Of a DNA stretch of 8,009 bases, positions 1,669 to 6,140 are shown piece by piece. A model generated the notes under the pieces. That model saw only the letters and a program-made list of their open reading frames with translations. It searched no databases and had not been told where the DNA came from. Position numbers and translations under genes: made by a program. Each line of letters begins with the position of its first letter. The first letter of the stretch is position 1. Source of the stretch: Gammaproteobacteria bacterium (GTDB lineage Bacteria; Pseudomonadota; Gammaproteobacteria; Chromatiales; Chromatiaceae); contig JAGVUH010000450.1 of NCBI GenBank assembly GCA_019136395.1, forward strand, positions 1 through 8,009. Direction: 5' to 3'.

Positions 1669-3645
1669 ATGTCCATTACCAAGACCATCACCGCCCTGCC
1701 CACGCCCCCCAGCCGCAGCGACCCCACTAACTTCGACAGCCGCGCGGATACCTTCCTCGGCGCCCTGCCCACCCTGGCTACCGAGATCAATACCTGGGCC
1801 ACCCAGGCCAACAGCACCGCCAGCACCGTCAACAGCGACAAGATCGCCGCGCAAACCGCCAAAACCAACGCCGAAACAGCGGAAACCAACGCCGAAACCG
1901 CCCAGGGCCTGGCGGAGGATGCCCGCGACGCCGCCGCCGCCAGCGCGGGCAGCGCCGCCACCAGCGCCGCCACCGCCACCAGCCAGGCCGCCAACGCCGC
2001 CGCCAGTGCCAGCAGCGCCGCCGCCTCCGCCCTTAGCGCCCAAGCGGCCGCCGCCGATGCCGTCGCCGTGGTCACCGGCGGTACCGCTAGCCTGGCCCCC
2101 GCCGCCGGCAAGATCCCCCTGGCCGGGGCCGATGGGCGCATCGATGCCGCCTGGCTGCGCCTGGCCAGCAATGACATCGGCACCCCGGGGCAGCAAGGCT
2201 TCGGCGTCGGCATCTGCCCCGACCTGCCCGCCGGTTACAGCCTCTTGTCCGGCACCACCGATCCCAGCAGCGACAACTACGGCAACTACCAGTATCAGGA
2301 TGGCAGCATTATGTGCTGGATTCCGGCGATCTGGGTCAAGTACACCGCCGGCGAGCCCAGCGACGTCAAGCCGCTCGGCTACTTTGTCGACGAGGCCGCG
2401 GCCAATGCCGCCGGCTATGTCAGCCACCGCGCTGACTGGGATGCCGGCACGCATCAGCCGGGGCAGTTCGTCGACAAGTACAAGTGCAGCCTGGGCAGCT
2501 ATGGCGGCTCCCCGGTCGCCTCCTCCCTGGCCAATGGCGTGCCCCTGGTCTCCGGCCCCGGCGCCGTGGGCCAGGTGGGCTTTGCCGCCGTGGGCGCCAC
2601 CAACGCCTACCACGGCGCCATCGTCGCCGCCAAAACGCGCGGCGCCAAATTCTTCTGCAACAGCCGGGCCATCCGCGCCAAGCTGGCCCTGCTCAGCCTG
2701 GTGCACGGCAAGGCCGCCACCGGCACCACTTATTGCGCCTGGTACAATGCCGCCGGCACCACCAACTTCCCCAAAGGCTGCAACAACAACAGCCTGCGCG
2801 ATACCAACGACACCAGCGTCCTCTACACCGCCGCCGATCCCCTCGGCACCTATCCCACCGCCCCCACCACCGGCAGCGGCGTGCCCTTCGCCAAAACCAC
2901 CCACAACGGCCAGGCGTGCGGCGTGGCCGACCTCAATGGCGGCTATTACGAGATCGAACTGGGCCTGACCTGCGTCGCCAGCGCCAAGAGCATCAGCGCC
3001 GCCACCCAGGCCAACCCGGTCGAAATCACCGCCACTGCCCATGGCTTCAGCAGTGGCGACCTGGTGATGATCACCGGCGCCGCGGGCATGACGCAGATCA
3101 AGGATAAGCTGTTTCGCATCACCAAAACCGGCGACAACACCTTCACCCTCGACGGCGTCGATGGTACGACGTTTGGCGCCTACACCGGCAGTGGCACCGC
3201 CACCAAGGGCGCCTGGTACGCCACGGACACCGATGTCGCCATGGCCAGCTATACCAGTGGCACCACCCTGGCCACCGATCACTGGGGCGCCACCGGCATC
3301 GCTGCCACCATGTCGCCCCTGGCCCTGGAGTTCGCCACCACCTATCCCAACAACGGCTTTGGGCAACGCTTTGGCGGCAGTGGCGCCACCTTCGCCGGAG
3401 CTACCAGTGGCGCCGGCTGGCACCTGGATGGCCTGGGGCTGCCCCAGGATACCGGCATCAGCACCAGCGGCACCAACCAATACGGGCAGGATTATTACTA
3501 CCAGTATGTGCGGGATCAGCTCTGCGTGATTTCGGGCGGCGGTTGGAACGACACCTCGTATGCTGGGGTGTGGGACGCCTTCCTGAGCCGCAATCGCACG
3601 GATGCCGACAACTCTGTGGGCTTCCGTGCCGCCTCGTATCTTTGA
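1669..3645 (+). CDS. Tail fibre / receptor-binding protein, DGR target with C-type-lectin-fold C-terminus
   Basis: A 658-residue fibre. Residues about 20-135 are extremely Ala/Ser/Thr-rich with regular AETAETNAETA-type repeats, as in trimeric shaft regions. A connector, GKIPLAGADGRIDAAWL (147-163), follows. From about residue 178 the chain resembles the formylglycine-enzyme-like C-type-lectin domains used as DGR targets (SIMCWIPAIWVKY; HNGQACGVADLNGGYYEIE). The end has GGGWND, VW, NRT and the closing GFR (651-653). Residues about 438-513 form a separate beta-rich insert. Residues 625-649 are the variable region, where 10 of 13 template Asn codons have been changed. The role is host-receptor recognition, analogous to Mtd of Bordetella phage BPP-1. 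The start at 1669 has only a weak GGA at 1659-1661. DGR-target status is certain from VR/TR; the receptor role is known for the family and inferred here. Confidence 0.93.
   Translation: MSITKTITALPTPPSRSDPTNFDSRADTFLGALPTLATEINTWATQANSTASTVNSDKIAAQTAKTNAETAETNAETAQGLAEDARDAAAASAGSAATSAATATSQAANAAASASSAAASALSAQAAAADAVAVVTGGTASLAPAAGKIPLAGADGRIDAAWLRLASNDIGTPGQQGFGVGICPDLPAGYSLLSGTTDPSSDNYGNYQYQDGSIMCWIPAIWVKYTAGEPSDVKPLGYFVDEAAANAAGYVSHRADWDAGTHQPGQFVDKYKCSLGSYGGSPVASSLANGVPLVSGPGAVGQVGFAAVGATNAYHGAIVAAKTRGAKFFCNSRAIRAKLALLSLVHGKAATGTTYCAWYNAAGTTNFPKGCNNNSLRDTNDTSVLYTAADPLGTYPTAPTTGSGVPFAKTTHNGQACGVADLNGGYYEIELGLTCVASAKSISAATQANPVEITATAHGFSSGDLVMITGAAGMTQIKDKLFRITKTGDNTFTLDGVDGTTFGAYTGSGTATKGAWYATDTDVAMASYTSGTTLATDHWGATGIAATMSPLALEFATTYPNNGFGQRFGGSGATFAGATSGAGWHLDGLGLPQDTGISTSGTNQYGQDYYYQYVRDQLCVISGGGWNDTSYAGVWDAFLSRNRTDADNSVGFRAASYL
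3519..3631 (+). repeat. DGR variable region (VR)
   Basis: This stretch aligns without gaps to the template repeat 690 bp downstream. Over 113 bp there are 14 mismatches, at 3541, 3542, 3550, 3559, 3574, 3580, 3581, 3587, 3589, 3590, 3601, 3607, 3613 and 3614. At each one the template has A; the VR has G eight times, T four times and C twice. No other base differs. Resulting residues at template-Asn codons are G625, N627, D628, Y631, D636, F638, S640, R641, N642, D645, D647, N648 and S649. The A-only pattern is the signature of mutagenic retrohoming. Confidence 0.98.
3615..3631 (+). other. Putative initiation-of-mutagenic-homology (IMH) block at VR 3' end
   Basis: The 17-bp run TGTGGGCTTCCGTGCCG contains no adenine and is identical in VR and TR (4305-4321). 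Just beyond it the two diverge (C at 3632 against A at 4322; G at 3636 against C at 4326). In Bordetella phage the equivalent GC-rich 3' block and its near-copy in TR set the direction of transfer. The 3632 difference is also at a template adenine, so the mutagenized tract may reach one codon further. Assignment as IMH is by analogy. Confidence 0.7.
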
Positions 3646-3691
3646 GCCCCCAAGCGGTAGCGCCGGGGGCGGCTGCCGGGCCGGGCCCGGC
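3646..3691 (+). other. GC-rich hairpin/cruciform-forming sequence just after VR
   Basis: GCCCCC (3646-3651) can pair with GGGGGC (3665-3670). GCCGGGCC (3675-3682) can pair with GGCCCGGC (3684-3691), and CGCCGGG (3661-3667) with CCCGGCG (3686-3692) as an alternative. These lie 10-60 bp after the VR. In Bordetella phage, DNA hairpins downstream of VR promote retrohoming, so a similar role is possible. No T-run follows, so it is not a typical terminator. In such GC-rich DNA some pairing is expected by chance. Confidence 0.45.
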
Positions 3692-3694
3692 GGC

Positions 3695-3699
3695 GGGAG
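3695..3699 (+). promoter_or_regulatory. Ribosome binding site of avd
   Basis: GGGAG lies eight bases before the ATG at 3708. It favours that start over the upstream ATG at 3543, which would place 55 unrelated residues encoded out of frame across the VR. Confidence 0.65.
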
Positions 3700-3707
3700 C
3701 GGCTAAC

Positions 3708-4205
3708 ATGGGCATTCATAGCGAGGCCCAATTAGATCAGCGCTTCCTAGCCTTCGCGCGCCTGCTGAATAAGTACTTGCAGCACTTTCCCAAGTTCGAG
3801 AAGTACGGCCTGGCCCTGGCCATCCGCCAGTGCGCCTATGACGTCTATGGCCTGATCGTGGAGGGCCAGAAGCGCTATTTCAAAAAAACCTCGTTGACCC
3901 AGCTCGACATCCGCCATGAGCAACTGCGCATGTTGGTGCGTCTGGCCCATGAGCTGGGCTACTTCGCTTTCCGCGCTGGCGCCGGCCAGGAAACCGGCGC
4001 CGCGCGGGCGGAACACCGCTATCTCACCCTGTCCCGGCACATCGATGAGCTGGGGCGGATGATTGGCGGTTGGCTCAGGGAGGAGAAACGCAAGGCCGCG
4101 GCCCCGGAAACCGCCCCACCGCTGGCGCCGCCGCCCCACCGGGCGGAAATCCGGTCGCCTGTCGCGCGGGGAACGGCGCCGGGCAAGCAAGGGGAGTGGT
4201 CTTAA
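3708..4205 (+). CDS. avd: DGR accessory variability determinant (Avd)
   Basis: A 165-residue protein whose first ~125 residues look like the four-helix Avd family: HFPKFEKYGLALAIR (26-40), VYGLIVEGQKRY (46-57), LDIRHEQLRMLVRLAHELGY (66-85) and YLTLSRHIDELGRMIGGWL (105-123). In the family Avd forms a positively charged pentameric barrel that binds the RT and the template RNA and is needed for cDNA synthesis. Arg and Lys are abundant here too. Residues about 126-165 add a Pro/Ala/Arg-rich, probably disordered tail beyond the usual helical core of roughly 120-130 residues. The start at 3708 is chosen for its GGGAG and because the helical core begins there. The stop at 4203-4205 lies three bases before the TR, the position avd holds in classical DGRs. 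Confidence 0.9.
   Translation: MGIHSEAQLDQRFLAFARLLNKYLQHFPKFEKYGLALAIRQCAYDVYGLIVEGQKRYFKKTSLTQLDIRHEQLRMLVRLAHELGYFAFRAGAGQETGAARAEHRYLTLSRHIDELGRMIGGWLREEKRKAAAPETAPPLAPPPHRAEIRSPVARGTAPGKQGEWS
4191..4196 (+). promoter_or_regulatory. Shine-Dalgarno-like site before the ATG that opens the template repeat
   Basis: GGGGAG within the last codons of avd sits ten bases before an ATG at 4207-4209. It could serve translation into the TR, or be coincidental purine content of the avd end. Confidence 0.35.
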
Positions 4206-4208
4206 CAT

Positions 4209-4321
4209 GCTCTGCGTGATTTCGGGCGGCAATTGGAACAACACCTCGAATGCTGGGGTGTGGAACGCCAACCTGAACAACAATCGCACGAATGCCAACA
4301 ACAATGTGGGCTTCCGTGCCG
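4209..4321 (+). repeat. DGR template repeat (TR)
   Basis: The invariant donor copy of the VR. It has 29 adenines in 4209-4320, 26 of them in 13 AAY codons; 14 of those 26 are changed in the VR and none of the other three is. AAY codons can mutate at both adenines to 15 amino acids without producing a stop. The TR begins four bases after the avd stop and lies 190 bp before the RT. It is read as RNA and copied by the RT with misincorporation at adenines. Confidence 0.98.
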
Positions 4322-4442
4322 ACTCCGCGCCTGATGGCCGTGGCGGCGTGGCCGCTGGCGTACTGGCGAAGAGGGAGACCCCTTCCCGTCCCGCCGTCCA
4401 CCAGGGCGGGGCAAAATCGTGGTCCACCCGGCTTTCCCCGGT

Positions 4443-4482
4443 CCGCCCTCACCCGGCGCCTGGGGTCAGTCGGGCGGTTTTT
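4443..4482 (+). terminator. Intrinsic-terminator-like hairpin between TR and RT
   Basis: CCGCCC (4443-4448) pairs with GGGCGG (4472-4477), directly followed by TTTTT (4478-4482). Inside the loop ACCC (4451-4454) can pair with GGGT (4463-4466), extending the structure. It lies 29 bases before the RT start. It could terminate or attenuate transcription, giving more template RNA than RT mRNA, or simply be structure of the DGR RNA. The loop is long, so termination strength is uncertain. Confidence 0.45.
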
Positions 4483-4501
4483 GCCACCCGCGGCCGGGCC
4501 C

Positions 4502-4505
4502 GGAG
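4502..4505 (+). promoter_or_regulatory. Ribosome binding site of the RT
   Basis: GGAG six bases before the ATG at 4512 supports that start over the in-frame ATG at 4419. The extra 31 residues from 4419 are low-complexity Pro/Gly-rich and fall in the spacer. Confidence 0.6.
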
Positions 4506-4511
4506 CCGCCC

Positions 4512-5564
4512 ATGACTGCCCCGCGTCCGGCCTTCAGTGCGATCATTGCCCCGGCCAACCTCTATCACGGCTATCTGGAGGCCCGCCGCCACAAGCGCGC
4601 CACCCGCGCCTGCCTGGCCTTCGAGAAAAGCATGGGGCAGGAGATCGCCACCCTGCACCAGGATCTGGCCAGCGGTCGTTATCGCCCCCGGCCCTATCAT
4701 CACTTTTGGGTCTATGAGCCCAAGCCGCGCCAGATCAGCGCCCCGGCCTTCCGCGATCGCGTCGTTCAGCACGCCATCTATCGCCATGTCCTGCCCGTGT
4801 TTGAGCCGGCCTTTATCGCCACCTCCTTTGCCTGCCGCCCGGGCAAGGGCACCCATGCCGCCGCCGATTACGTCCAGGCGGCCCTCCGCCGCGTCCCGCT
4901 GGATAGCTATGTGCTGCAACTGGATATTCGCCGCTACTACTACCGGATTCAGCATGCCACCCTGCGCGCCCTCATCGCCCGGCGCATCCATGACCCGGCC
5001 CTGCTCGACCTGTGGCTGGCCTTCGCCGATCCCGGCGACGGCGCCACTGTGGGCCTGCCCATTGGCTGCCTGCTCAGCCAGCTCAACGGCTTGATCTACC
5101 TCAATCCCCTCGACCACTTCATCAAGCGCGAGCTCAAAATCCATCATTACGCGCGCTATGTCGACGACCTGGTCCTCATCGGCCTGAGCCGCTCCCAGGG
5201 CGAAGCCTGCCTAAGTGCCATCACCGCCTTTCTGGCGGAGCGCCTGAGCCTGGAATTGTCGCGCGCCGACCTCTACCCCAGCCGCCGCGGCATCAACTTT
5301 GTCGGCTATCGCACCTGGCGCAGCCGTCGCTTCGTGCGCAAGCACAGTCTTTACACCTTCCGCCGCGCCGCCAAGGCCGGCGACATCCCGCGCCTGGTGT
5401 CCTGTATCGGCCATGCCCGCCGCACCGCCACCTGGCGCCACTACCACCGCACCCTGGCCCAATCATACCCCGCCCTGGTAGCCCAGTTACCCGCCCCGCT
5501 GCGCCACGATCATCACCGGCTCAGCAAGGAGCCGTCCTCCTCTCACGCCCTCACCCCCGGCTAA
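4512..5564 (+). CDS. DGR reverse transcriptase
   Basis: A 350-residue RT of normal DGR size. In order: fingers motifs around RPRPYHHFWVYEPKPRQI (58-75) and FRDRVVQHA; motif A LQLDIRRYY (135-143) with catalytic D138; the region IGCLLSQ (184-190), the hallmark (I/L/V)GxxxSQ that separates DGR RTs from group II intron and retroviral enzymes (QGxxxSP); YVDD (216-219) with catalytic D218 and D219; and GINFVGYR (260-267), followed by a basic thumb region. The enzyme copies template RNA into cDNA with errors at adenines, working with Avd. All catalytic residues are intact. The C-terminal ~20 residues are Ser/Pro/His-rich and probably disordered. Confidence 0.96.
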   Translation: MTAPRPAFSAIIAPANLYHGYLEARRHKRATRACLAFEKSMGQEIATLHQDLASGRYRPRPYHHFWVYEPKPRQISAPAFRDRVVQHAIYRHVLPVFEPAFIATSFACRPGKGTHAAADYVQAALRRVPLDSYVLQLDIRRYYYRIQHATLRALIARRIHDPALLDLWLAFADPGDGATVGLPIGCLLSQLNGLIYLNPLDHFIKRELKIHHYARYVDDLVLIGLSRSQGEACLSAITAFLAERLSLELSRADLYPSRRGINFVGYRTWRSRRFVRKHSLYTFRRAAKAGDIPRLVSCIGHARRTATWRHYHRTLAQSYPALVAQLPAPLRHDHHRLSKEPSSSHALTPG

Positions 5565-5641: not shown

Positions 5642-6140
5642 ATGCCCAACGCCCAACTCTATCGCTACCAGCCCGCTATCGTCCACGGCCCCCATGGCCA
5701 TGACCCGCGCCCCCTTGGCCCCGATGGCGAGGATTACCACGATACCCTTACGGAACTCTGCGAGCTCGACGGCTGGCGTTACGTCGCCGTCCCCGCCGGC
5801 ATCGCCCCCCAGATCCCCGCAGCCCTCCCCCGCCGGCATCGCCCCCCAGATCCCCGCAGCCCTCACCACCTGGGAAGCCGTCGACCTGTCGCCCGCCTTG
5901 CGCGAAGCCATCAAGGCCGCCAGTCCGCACGCGCAACTGATCGCGCAGCGCGTCATTGATCTGATCCGTGCCAAGTATCCGTTGGATGAGGAGCTGTACT
6001 TTGCCAGGATCGCGGTCGGCGCCCTTCAGAATAGCTACACCCTGCTGCCTGGCGAGGCTGAGGCCCTGGCGCAGTACCAGACCGATGTTGAGGCTGCGCG
6101 GGAATGGGGTCGCACCGAACGGGCGAAGATCGGGCTATGA
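5642..6140 (+). pseudogene. Phage hypothetical gene split by a 37-bp tandem duplication
   Basis: The ATG at 5642 opens MPNAQLYRYQPAIVHGPHGH... up to VAVPAGIAPQIPAAL. In the current sequence this frame runs into low-complexity Arg/Pro/His and stops at 5957-5959 after 105 residues. The natural continuation, PAALTTWEAVDLSPALREAI to AREWGRTERAKIGL, is in another frame ending at 6140. Removing one 37-bp copy restores a single 153-residue frame. The product is not recognised: an N-terminal part with YHDTLTELCELDGWRYVAVP, then a helical part with RAKYPLDEELYFARIAVGAL. Its position after tail-fibre/DGR genes suggests a minor tail or assembly protein, but that is a guess. It may be truly broken, phase-variable, or an assembly error. 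Confidence 0.75.
5791..5864 (+). repeat. Exact 37-bp tandem duplication
   Basis: Two identical adjacent units, 5791-5827 and 5828-5864, each beginning CCCCGCCGGCATCG and ending CAGCCCTC. Because 37 is not a multiple of three, the second copy shifts the frame of the surrounding gene. Perfect identity suggests a recent event, by slippage or misassembly. Confidence 0.95.

Follow-up and report, generated by a model that had tools for sequence, protein, structure and literature searches.

Positions 1-8,009 of contig JAGVUH010000450.1 (assembly GCA_019136395.1, a Gammaproteobacteria bacterium of the Chromatiaceae), hereafter called the window, were analyzed to follow up a first-pass annotation of a diversity-generating retroelement (DGR). 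Our analysis indicates that, almost certainly, a bacterial virus (phage) carries here a complete and typical DGR of the BPP-1 architecture, comprising a target gene with a variable repeat (VR), a hairpin, avd, a template repeat (TR), a spacer and a reverse transcriptase (RT) gene. The element belongs to an already known kind and is mildly unusual in its TR-RNA spacer. The first-pass annotation had described a complete DGR with VR, avd, TR and RT in canonical order; its coordinates, order and counts agreed on recheck. The features of the element are as follows (stop codons included for avd and RT):

1669..3645, + strand: DGR target gene, encoding a 658-aa tail-type variable protein with the VR as its C-terminus
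3519..3631, + strand: VR, mismatching the TR at 14 of 113 columns, all 14 at TR adenines
3615..3635, + strand: initiation of mutagenic homing (IMH) region, the VR counterpart of a 17-nt adenine-free TR run, plus GCCTC, with a fixed C at 3632
3646..3670, + strand: putative target-site hairpin/cruciform after the stop codon, with a 6-bp outer stem (GCCCCC/GGGGGC), a 2x3 internal loop, a 2-bp inner stem and a GGTA loop
3708..4205, + strand: avd (accessory variability determinant), 165 aa, extending C-terminally past the domain
4209..4321, + strand: TR, in gapless alignment to the VR
4305..4440, + strand: TR 3' end (IMH*, with GACT and the A at 4322) and TR-RNA spacer, matched by covariance model R1
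4512..5564, + strand: DGR RT, 350 aa, with IGCLLSQ and YVDD

Repeats, genes and encoded proteins

Our recount reproduced the indel-free VR/TR alignment, with every mismatch at a TR adenine. Adenines occupy 29 of the 113 TR columns, and all 14 mismatches would fall on them by chance with a probability of 2.8e-10. In the target frame, every one of the 29 is a first or second codon base. The remaining 84 columns contain no mismatch at all (95% upper bound of 3.5% per site), which the first-pass annotation had read as a sign of recent operation. The count holds, but 54 of 97 other loci likewise lack non-adenine mismatches (a figure that leans that way through a pair finder that penalised such mismatches and accepted only pairs with 75% or more at the scored base), and alone it is weak evidence. 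The VR-TR offset is 690 in the window, compared with 538-634 in 96 of the 97 other loci, 698 in the remaining one and 714 in Pseudomonas phage Bise. An ATG overlapping the first TR base opens a candidate reading frame through TR and spacer (4207-4515), which is in the target protein's frame.

A predicted model and fold comparison suggest that the target protein has a TaqVP-type fold and that its C-type-lectin domain (formylglycine-generating-enzyme type), interrupted by an FCCH-like insert, carries the VR at the C-terminus. The N-terminal part appears helical in a full-length structure model, which was built from 21 sequences with a predicted local distance difference test score (pLDDT) of only 52.6 and was used for this remark alone. 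PDB sequence searches (E ≤ 1) made with the variable protein and with Avd gave no match named as DGR; the relationship of the variable protein rests on its fold. TaqVP of Thermus aquaticus (5vf4) is 20% identical to the window protein; it is described as a single-domain protein (PMC6328139), without the FCCH-like insert and the N-terminal part.

The RT matched phrog_1423 (2.7e-100) and RVT_1, and the D138, IGCLLSQ (from 184) and YVDD (from 216) motifs claimed earlier are all present. Its best solved relative is 8ub7 (1.7e-55), which we take to be the BPP-1 DGR RT, and the next is a group II RT (1.1e-23). When 154 phage records were ranked by RT, Bise came first (48.8% identity), while BPP-1 reached 39.1%. 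To place the RT, a maximum-likelihood tree of 46 RTs was used, consisting of 40 RTs obtained from 42 loci hand-picked among 139 scanned loci, plus those of the window, BPP-1, Bise, Ideonella and two group II RTs. The window RT falls in a set of six (100/100), together with one RT from a Thiobacillus metagenome-assembled genome (MAG) and four from viral contigs; the group II pair lies apart. All five partners come from other TR/VR-bearing loci, a placement that the first-pass annotation had expected of a DGR RT.

Avd, an accessory protein that most but not all DGRs have, was matched by phrog_3206 (6.8e-24) and by PF22296 bAvd (56.9 bits; cut-off 40), and scored 70.3 bits with NCBIfam NF033474, under its cut-off of 80. 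The Pfam match covers residues 11-125 of 165, and the protein extends beyond it by about 40 Pro/Ala-rich residues (4083-4205).

Evidence for recent activity in the lineage

The closest variable protein, P0001 (658 aa, with 21 members in its 90% cluster), differs from the window protein at 28 positions. Ten of the 16 adenine codons of the VR are changed, the 21 other VR codons all agree, and the remaining 18 differences are spread over the 617 residues before the VR (Fisher's test for adenine codons: 2.3e-5 against other VR codons, 3.4e-11 against residues before the VR). This is, at the protein level, the comparison of VRs between close relatives that had been proposed with the first-pass annotation, and inside the VR variation is confined to adenine codons. 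Moreover, all 37 residues of the P0001 VR can be reached by adenine-only change, taking the window's TR as reference in this protein-level comparison. Over 117 sequences, entropy is 2.91 bits at adenine codons, 0.84 at other VR codons and 1.25 at residues 170-609.

Variation of the same kind was found at the DNA level in the family. Fourteen contig pairs have identical TRs, a difference of 0.00 (at printed precision) in the 400 nt after the TR and no more than one differing base in the 300 nt before the VR. In four of these pairs the VRs are identical. The remaining ten, which share members, show 116 VR differences, of which 107 fall on TR adenines (17/17 in L008/L009 and 14/14 in L037/L043, for example).

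A further protein search, aimed at additional VR variants of this phage and using the C-terminal 130 residues as query, returned a best match of 71% identity. The VR 5' end, sought as an exact pattern, was not found in viral contigs, and a scan of viral contigs for the variable protein yielded none confirmed. No phage or plasmid DNA matched the window at near-identity, and a distant DNA search of phages covered 29% with Bise and 5% with two Faecalibacterium phage records.

Taken as sequence evidence, the variation in P0001 and in the family pairs supports the view that the DGR has acted recently in the window's lineage. For this particular copy, which the first-pass annotation had called apparently active, we consider activity likely.

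Departures in the template-RNA spacer and the reverse transcriptase

The spacer between TR and RT encodes a conserved RNA in the family: among 53 relatives (window excluded), a four-pair hairpin shows both-side changes in 21-34 sequences per pair. The covariance model R1 was built without the window from alignment A1, which contains 53 of 68 non-window stretches (15 more divergent ones were removed by hand), following a thinning of 93 sequences to 71. Searched against 28 sources, R1 gave 15 matches, while 13 sources had no match at E ≤ 1, namely BPP-1, Ideonella, both group II stretches, L005 and eight loci of more distant RTs. The window spacer obtained 20.1 bits (E 0.0024 over the 28 sources; 7.4e-5 on the window alone). 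Because the IMH at the VR alone obtains 8.8 bits, the spacer proper contributes only about 11 bits. The other 14 matches scored 43.6-120.2 bits; several high scorers (L003, L009, L010, L014, L018, L030 and L113) are >90% like a training sequence, and the fairer comparison set (L036, L037, L088, L093, L095, L099 and L140) gave 44-104 bits.

The Rfam DGR RNA family RF03022 matched BPP-1 at 104.7 bits and, at threshold, did not match L113, L082, L107, L030, L103, L099 or Bise. A search of the whole window with Rfam gave no family at gathering score, and a search of the spacer alone (E ≤ 10) gave four unrelated weak matches and no DGR family. Strongly conserved and covarying spacer RNA occurs about 10-150 nt after the TR (L001-L131) in Pseudomonadota DGRs and in those of other groups.

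Several observations weigh against a typical, working element. The window spacer has the lowest score of the 15 R1 matches, lacks the GTAG present in 53/53 training sequences and, like L113 and L103, has no RF03022 match up to E 10. The RT branch is long (0.86 in the 46-RT tree), and the RT start deviates, lacking the R3 of 148/149 and the G5 of 145/149 other RTs (the five relatives' RTs listed start with MKRHG). In addition, RT position 160 is His where 148/149 other RTs have Lys, and motif 4 has Cys where 135/152 RTs have Asn. Nine of the 116 VR differences in the family pairs lie off TR adenines.

The motif-4 Cys was considered as a sign of damage and dropped, as 16 of 152 RTs carry it, the window, P0121 and P0122 among them. 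P0121 and P0122 have the same RT departures as the window, and the window RT differs from P0121 at five positions. Since they are common to these proteins, the departures look like lineage traits rather than fresh damage. It is possible, and we put it forward only tentatively, that the template-RNA spacer (GTAG gone, first hairpin enlarged) and the RT N-terminus (new start, motif-4 Cys) changed together while the target was still being mutated. If true, the co-changed spacer and RT would be a natural test of which DGR RNA parts are dispensable or co-evolving with the RT.

Alternatively, the DGR may have been active until recently and this copy may since have become non-functional, with changes in the spacer RNA or RT as one conceivable cause; we consider this unlikely. 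Such a loss would fit the weak spacer score, the missing GTAG and the long RT branch, as well as a tandem duplication that disrupts the reading frame of a phage gene close by (see below), so that the record may contain a decaying prophage or an assembly fault. It is opposed by an RT that is open across 350 aa with its motifs and is so close to P0121, by the absence of non-adenine VR/TR mismatches, and by the restriction of P0001 variation inside the VR to adenine codons.

Two other explanations for the apparent DGR have very little to recommend them. Selection on the protein does act on the VR, where the non-adenine codons are conserved, and could in principle lend an adenine bias to an ordinary diverged duplication; this is highly improbable given the 14/14 count and the adjoining Avd and DGR-type RT, as well as the 17/17 mismatches at adenines in BPP-1 and 9/9 in Bise by the same scoring and the 1536 of 1596 in the 97 other loci (a count that leans the same way through the pair finder). 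Nor do we give appreciable credence to a group II intron or defence RT that lies beside a repeat by accident: the best NCBIfam model of the RT is indeed a group II model (TIGR04416, 2.8e-35), yet it scores 122 bits against a cut-off of 300, the RT has IGCLLSQ (IGxxxSQ) in place of the QGxxxSP of the two group II RTs, and its tree position and the presence of Avd and TR/VR point to a DGR.

Homing signals, related systems and proposed working

Beyond the 113 columns, ungapped VR/TR similarity continues as far as 3635/4325 and includes one more mismatch, the 15th, at 3632/4322, where the TR base is A. This position was examined in 98 of 140 sequences (109 of the 140 had a pair, and 98 had the TR 500-720 nt after the VR). 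GACT stands at the TR 3' end in 93 of the 98, window included, and the VR has C for that A in 93/93 (GCCT in 92 and GCTT in one), although these 93 sequences are not independent, as many are close kin; the remaining five lack GACT. At TR adenines upstream of GACT, the VR bases are A 1055, G 780, C 313 and T 305. The window has GCCT in the VR and GACT in the TR, as does phage Bise, which lies outside the 98-sequence count; BPP-1 lacks this pair. Judging from the aligned relatives, the 3632/4322 pair is a fixed IMH/IMH* difference across the family and not a product of mutagenesis, and its candidacy as a 15th mutagenised site was dropped. Because the mismatch is fixed family-wide, the end of the VR at 113 columns is right, and the boundary drawn by the first-pass annotation was kept, refined by the similarity that runs on beyond it. 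We offer the fixed TR-A/VR-C pair without claim of priority. For BPP-1, IMH/IMH* differences are described as directing transfer and reportedly stop the TR from acting as recipient (PMC3240598, PMC4891356).

Downstream of the VR, the hairpin at 3646-3670 has eight pairs in total, and its GGTA loop conforms to the GRNA consensus of PMC3240598, a paper that also reports that the BPP-1 hairpin is required for efficient homing. Hairpins with an inner stem, an optional internal loop, an outer stem and a GRNA loop were found in 49 of 93 sequences, compared with 0.9 in shuffles. A stricter scan for uninterrupted stems (≥6 bp) found 15 of 93, compared with 0.1 in shuffles, and the window's hairpin was not among these. 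A second, uninterrupted inverted repeat with a 7-bp GC-only stem and a CGG loop lies downstream (3675-3691); the 3646-3670 hairpin was preferred because of its loop and its geometry shared with relatives. Three family-wide regularities, namely the fixed A/C pair, the covarying spacer RNA and the interrupted GRNA-loop hairpins after the VR, provide simple marks for judging DGR intactness in raw sequence.

The relatives in the 100/100 RT set (the Thiobacillus MAG and viral contigs; L113, L001, L002, L003 and L039) have RTs that are 56-58% identical to that of the window, with IGNLLSQ instead of IGCLLSQ. L001, L003 and L113 also share the VR end GCCTCGTATCTTTGA and the hairpin geometry, the latter with a 5-bp outer stem in L003. 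With R1, L003 and L113 reach about 110 bits in the spacer, compared with 20 for the window; both are among those close to a training sequence.

BPP-1 (mtd, avd/bbp7, TR, brt; L141) resembles the window in gene order, with the TR directly after avd, in its adenine-only VR/TR mismatches, in a hairpin with a GRNA-type loop after the VR and in its lectin target of the formylglycine-generating-enzyme type. Apart from its more distant RT, it differs in that its hairpin is an uninterrupted 8-bp stem with a GAAA loop, its IMH and IMH* differ at other bases and its spacer is RF03022. Bise (L140) has an annotated four-helix protein beside the RT and a spacer scoring 85 bits with R1; unlike the window, its annotated target gene encodes 364 aa and its RT forms a separate branch. 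The Ideonella plasmid (L142) carries two annotated avd and two RT genes beside an integrase gene, with a repeat pair in which 17 of 18 mismatches are at A.

By analogy with BPP-1, an avd-TR-spacer RNA would bind RT and Avd, the spacer would fold and prime cDNA synthesis into the TR 3' end, the RT would misread template adenines, and the mutated cDNA would replace the VR. The adenine-free IMH run, the GCCT/GACT difference and the 3646-3670 hairpin would set place and direction. In the mechanism described in PMC12875486, the spacer recruits RT-Avd, and cDNA synthesis is primed at IMH* by an adenine within the spacer, with A-to-N errors. The result visible in the window is a tail-type protein of predicted lectin fold with a C-terminal surface that departs from the TR at adenine-encoded residues only, and we infer that the purpose may be to alter receptor binding. 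A metagenome study catalogued >30,000 DGRs, spread over six lineages, and in each group 50-75% showed signs of having been active recently (PMC8144416); with so many on record, one further DGR is ordinary.

Outside the element, a tRNA-like call on the minus strand (751-844) was dropped, as it has no assigned amino acid and lies inside an open reading frame. Finally, an exact 37-bp tandem duplication in two copies (5791-5864) lies inside a phage gene with its ATG at 5642. Because 37 is not divisible by three and the reading frames on either side of the duplication differ, this gene looks broken or the assembly faulty.

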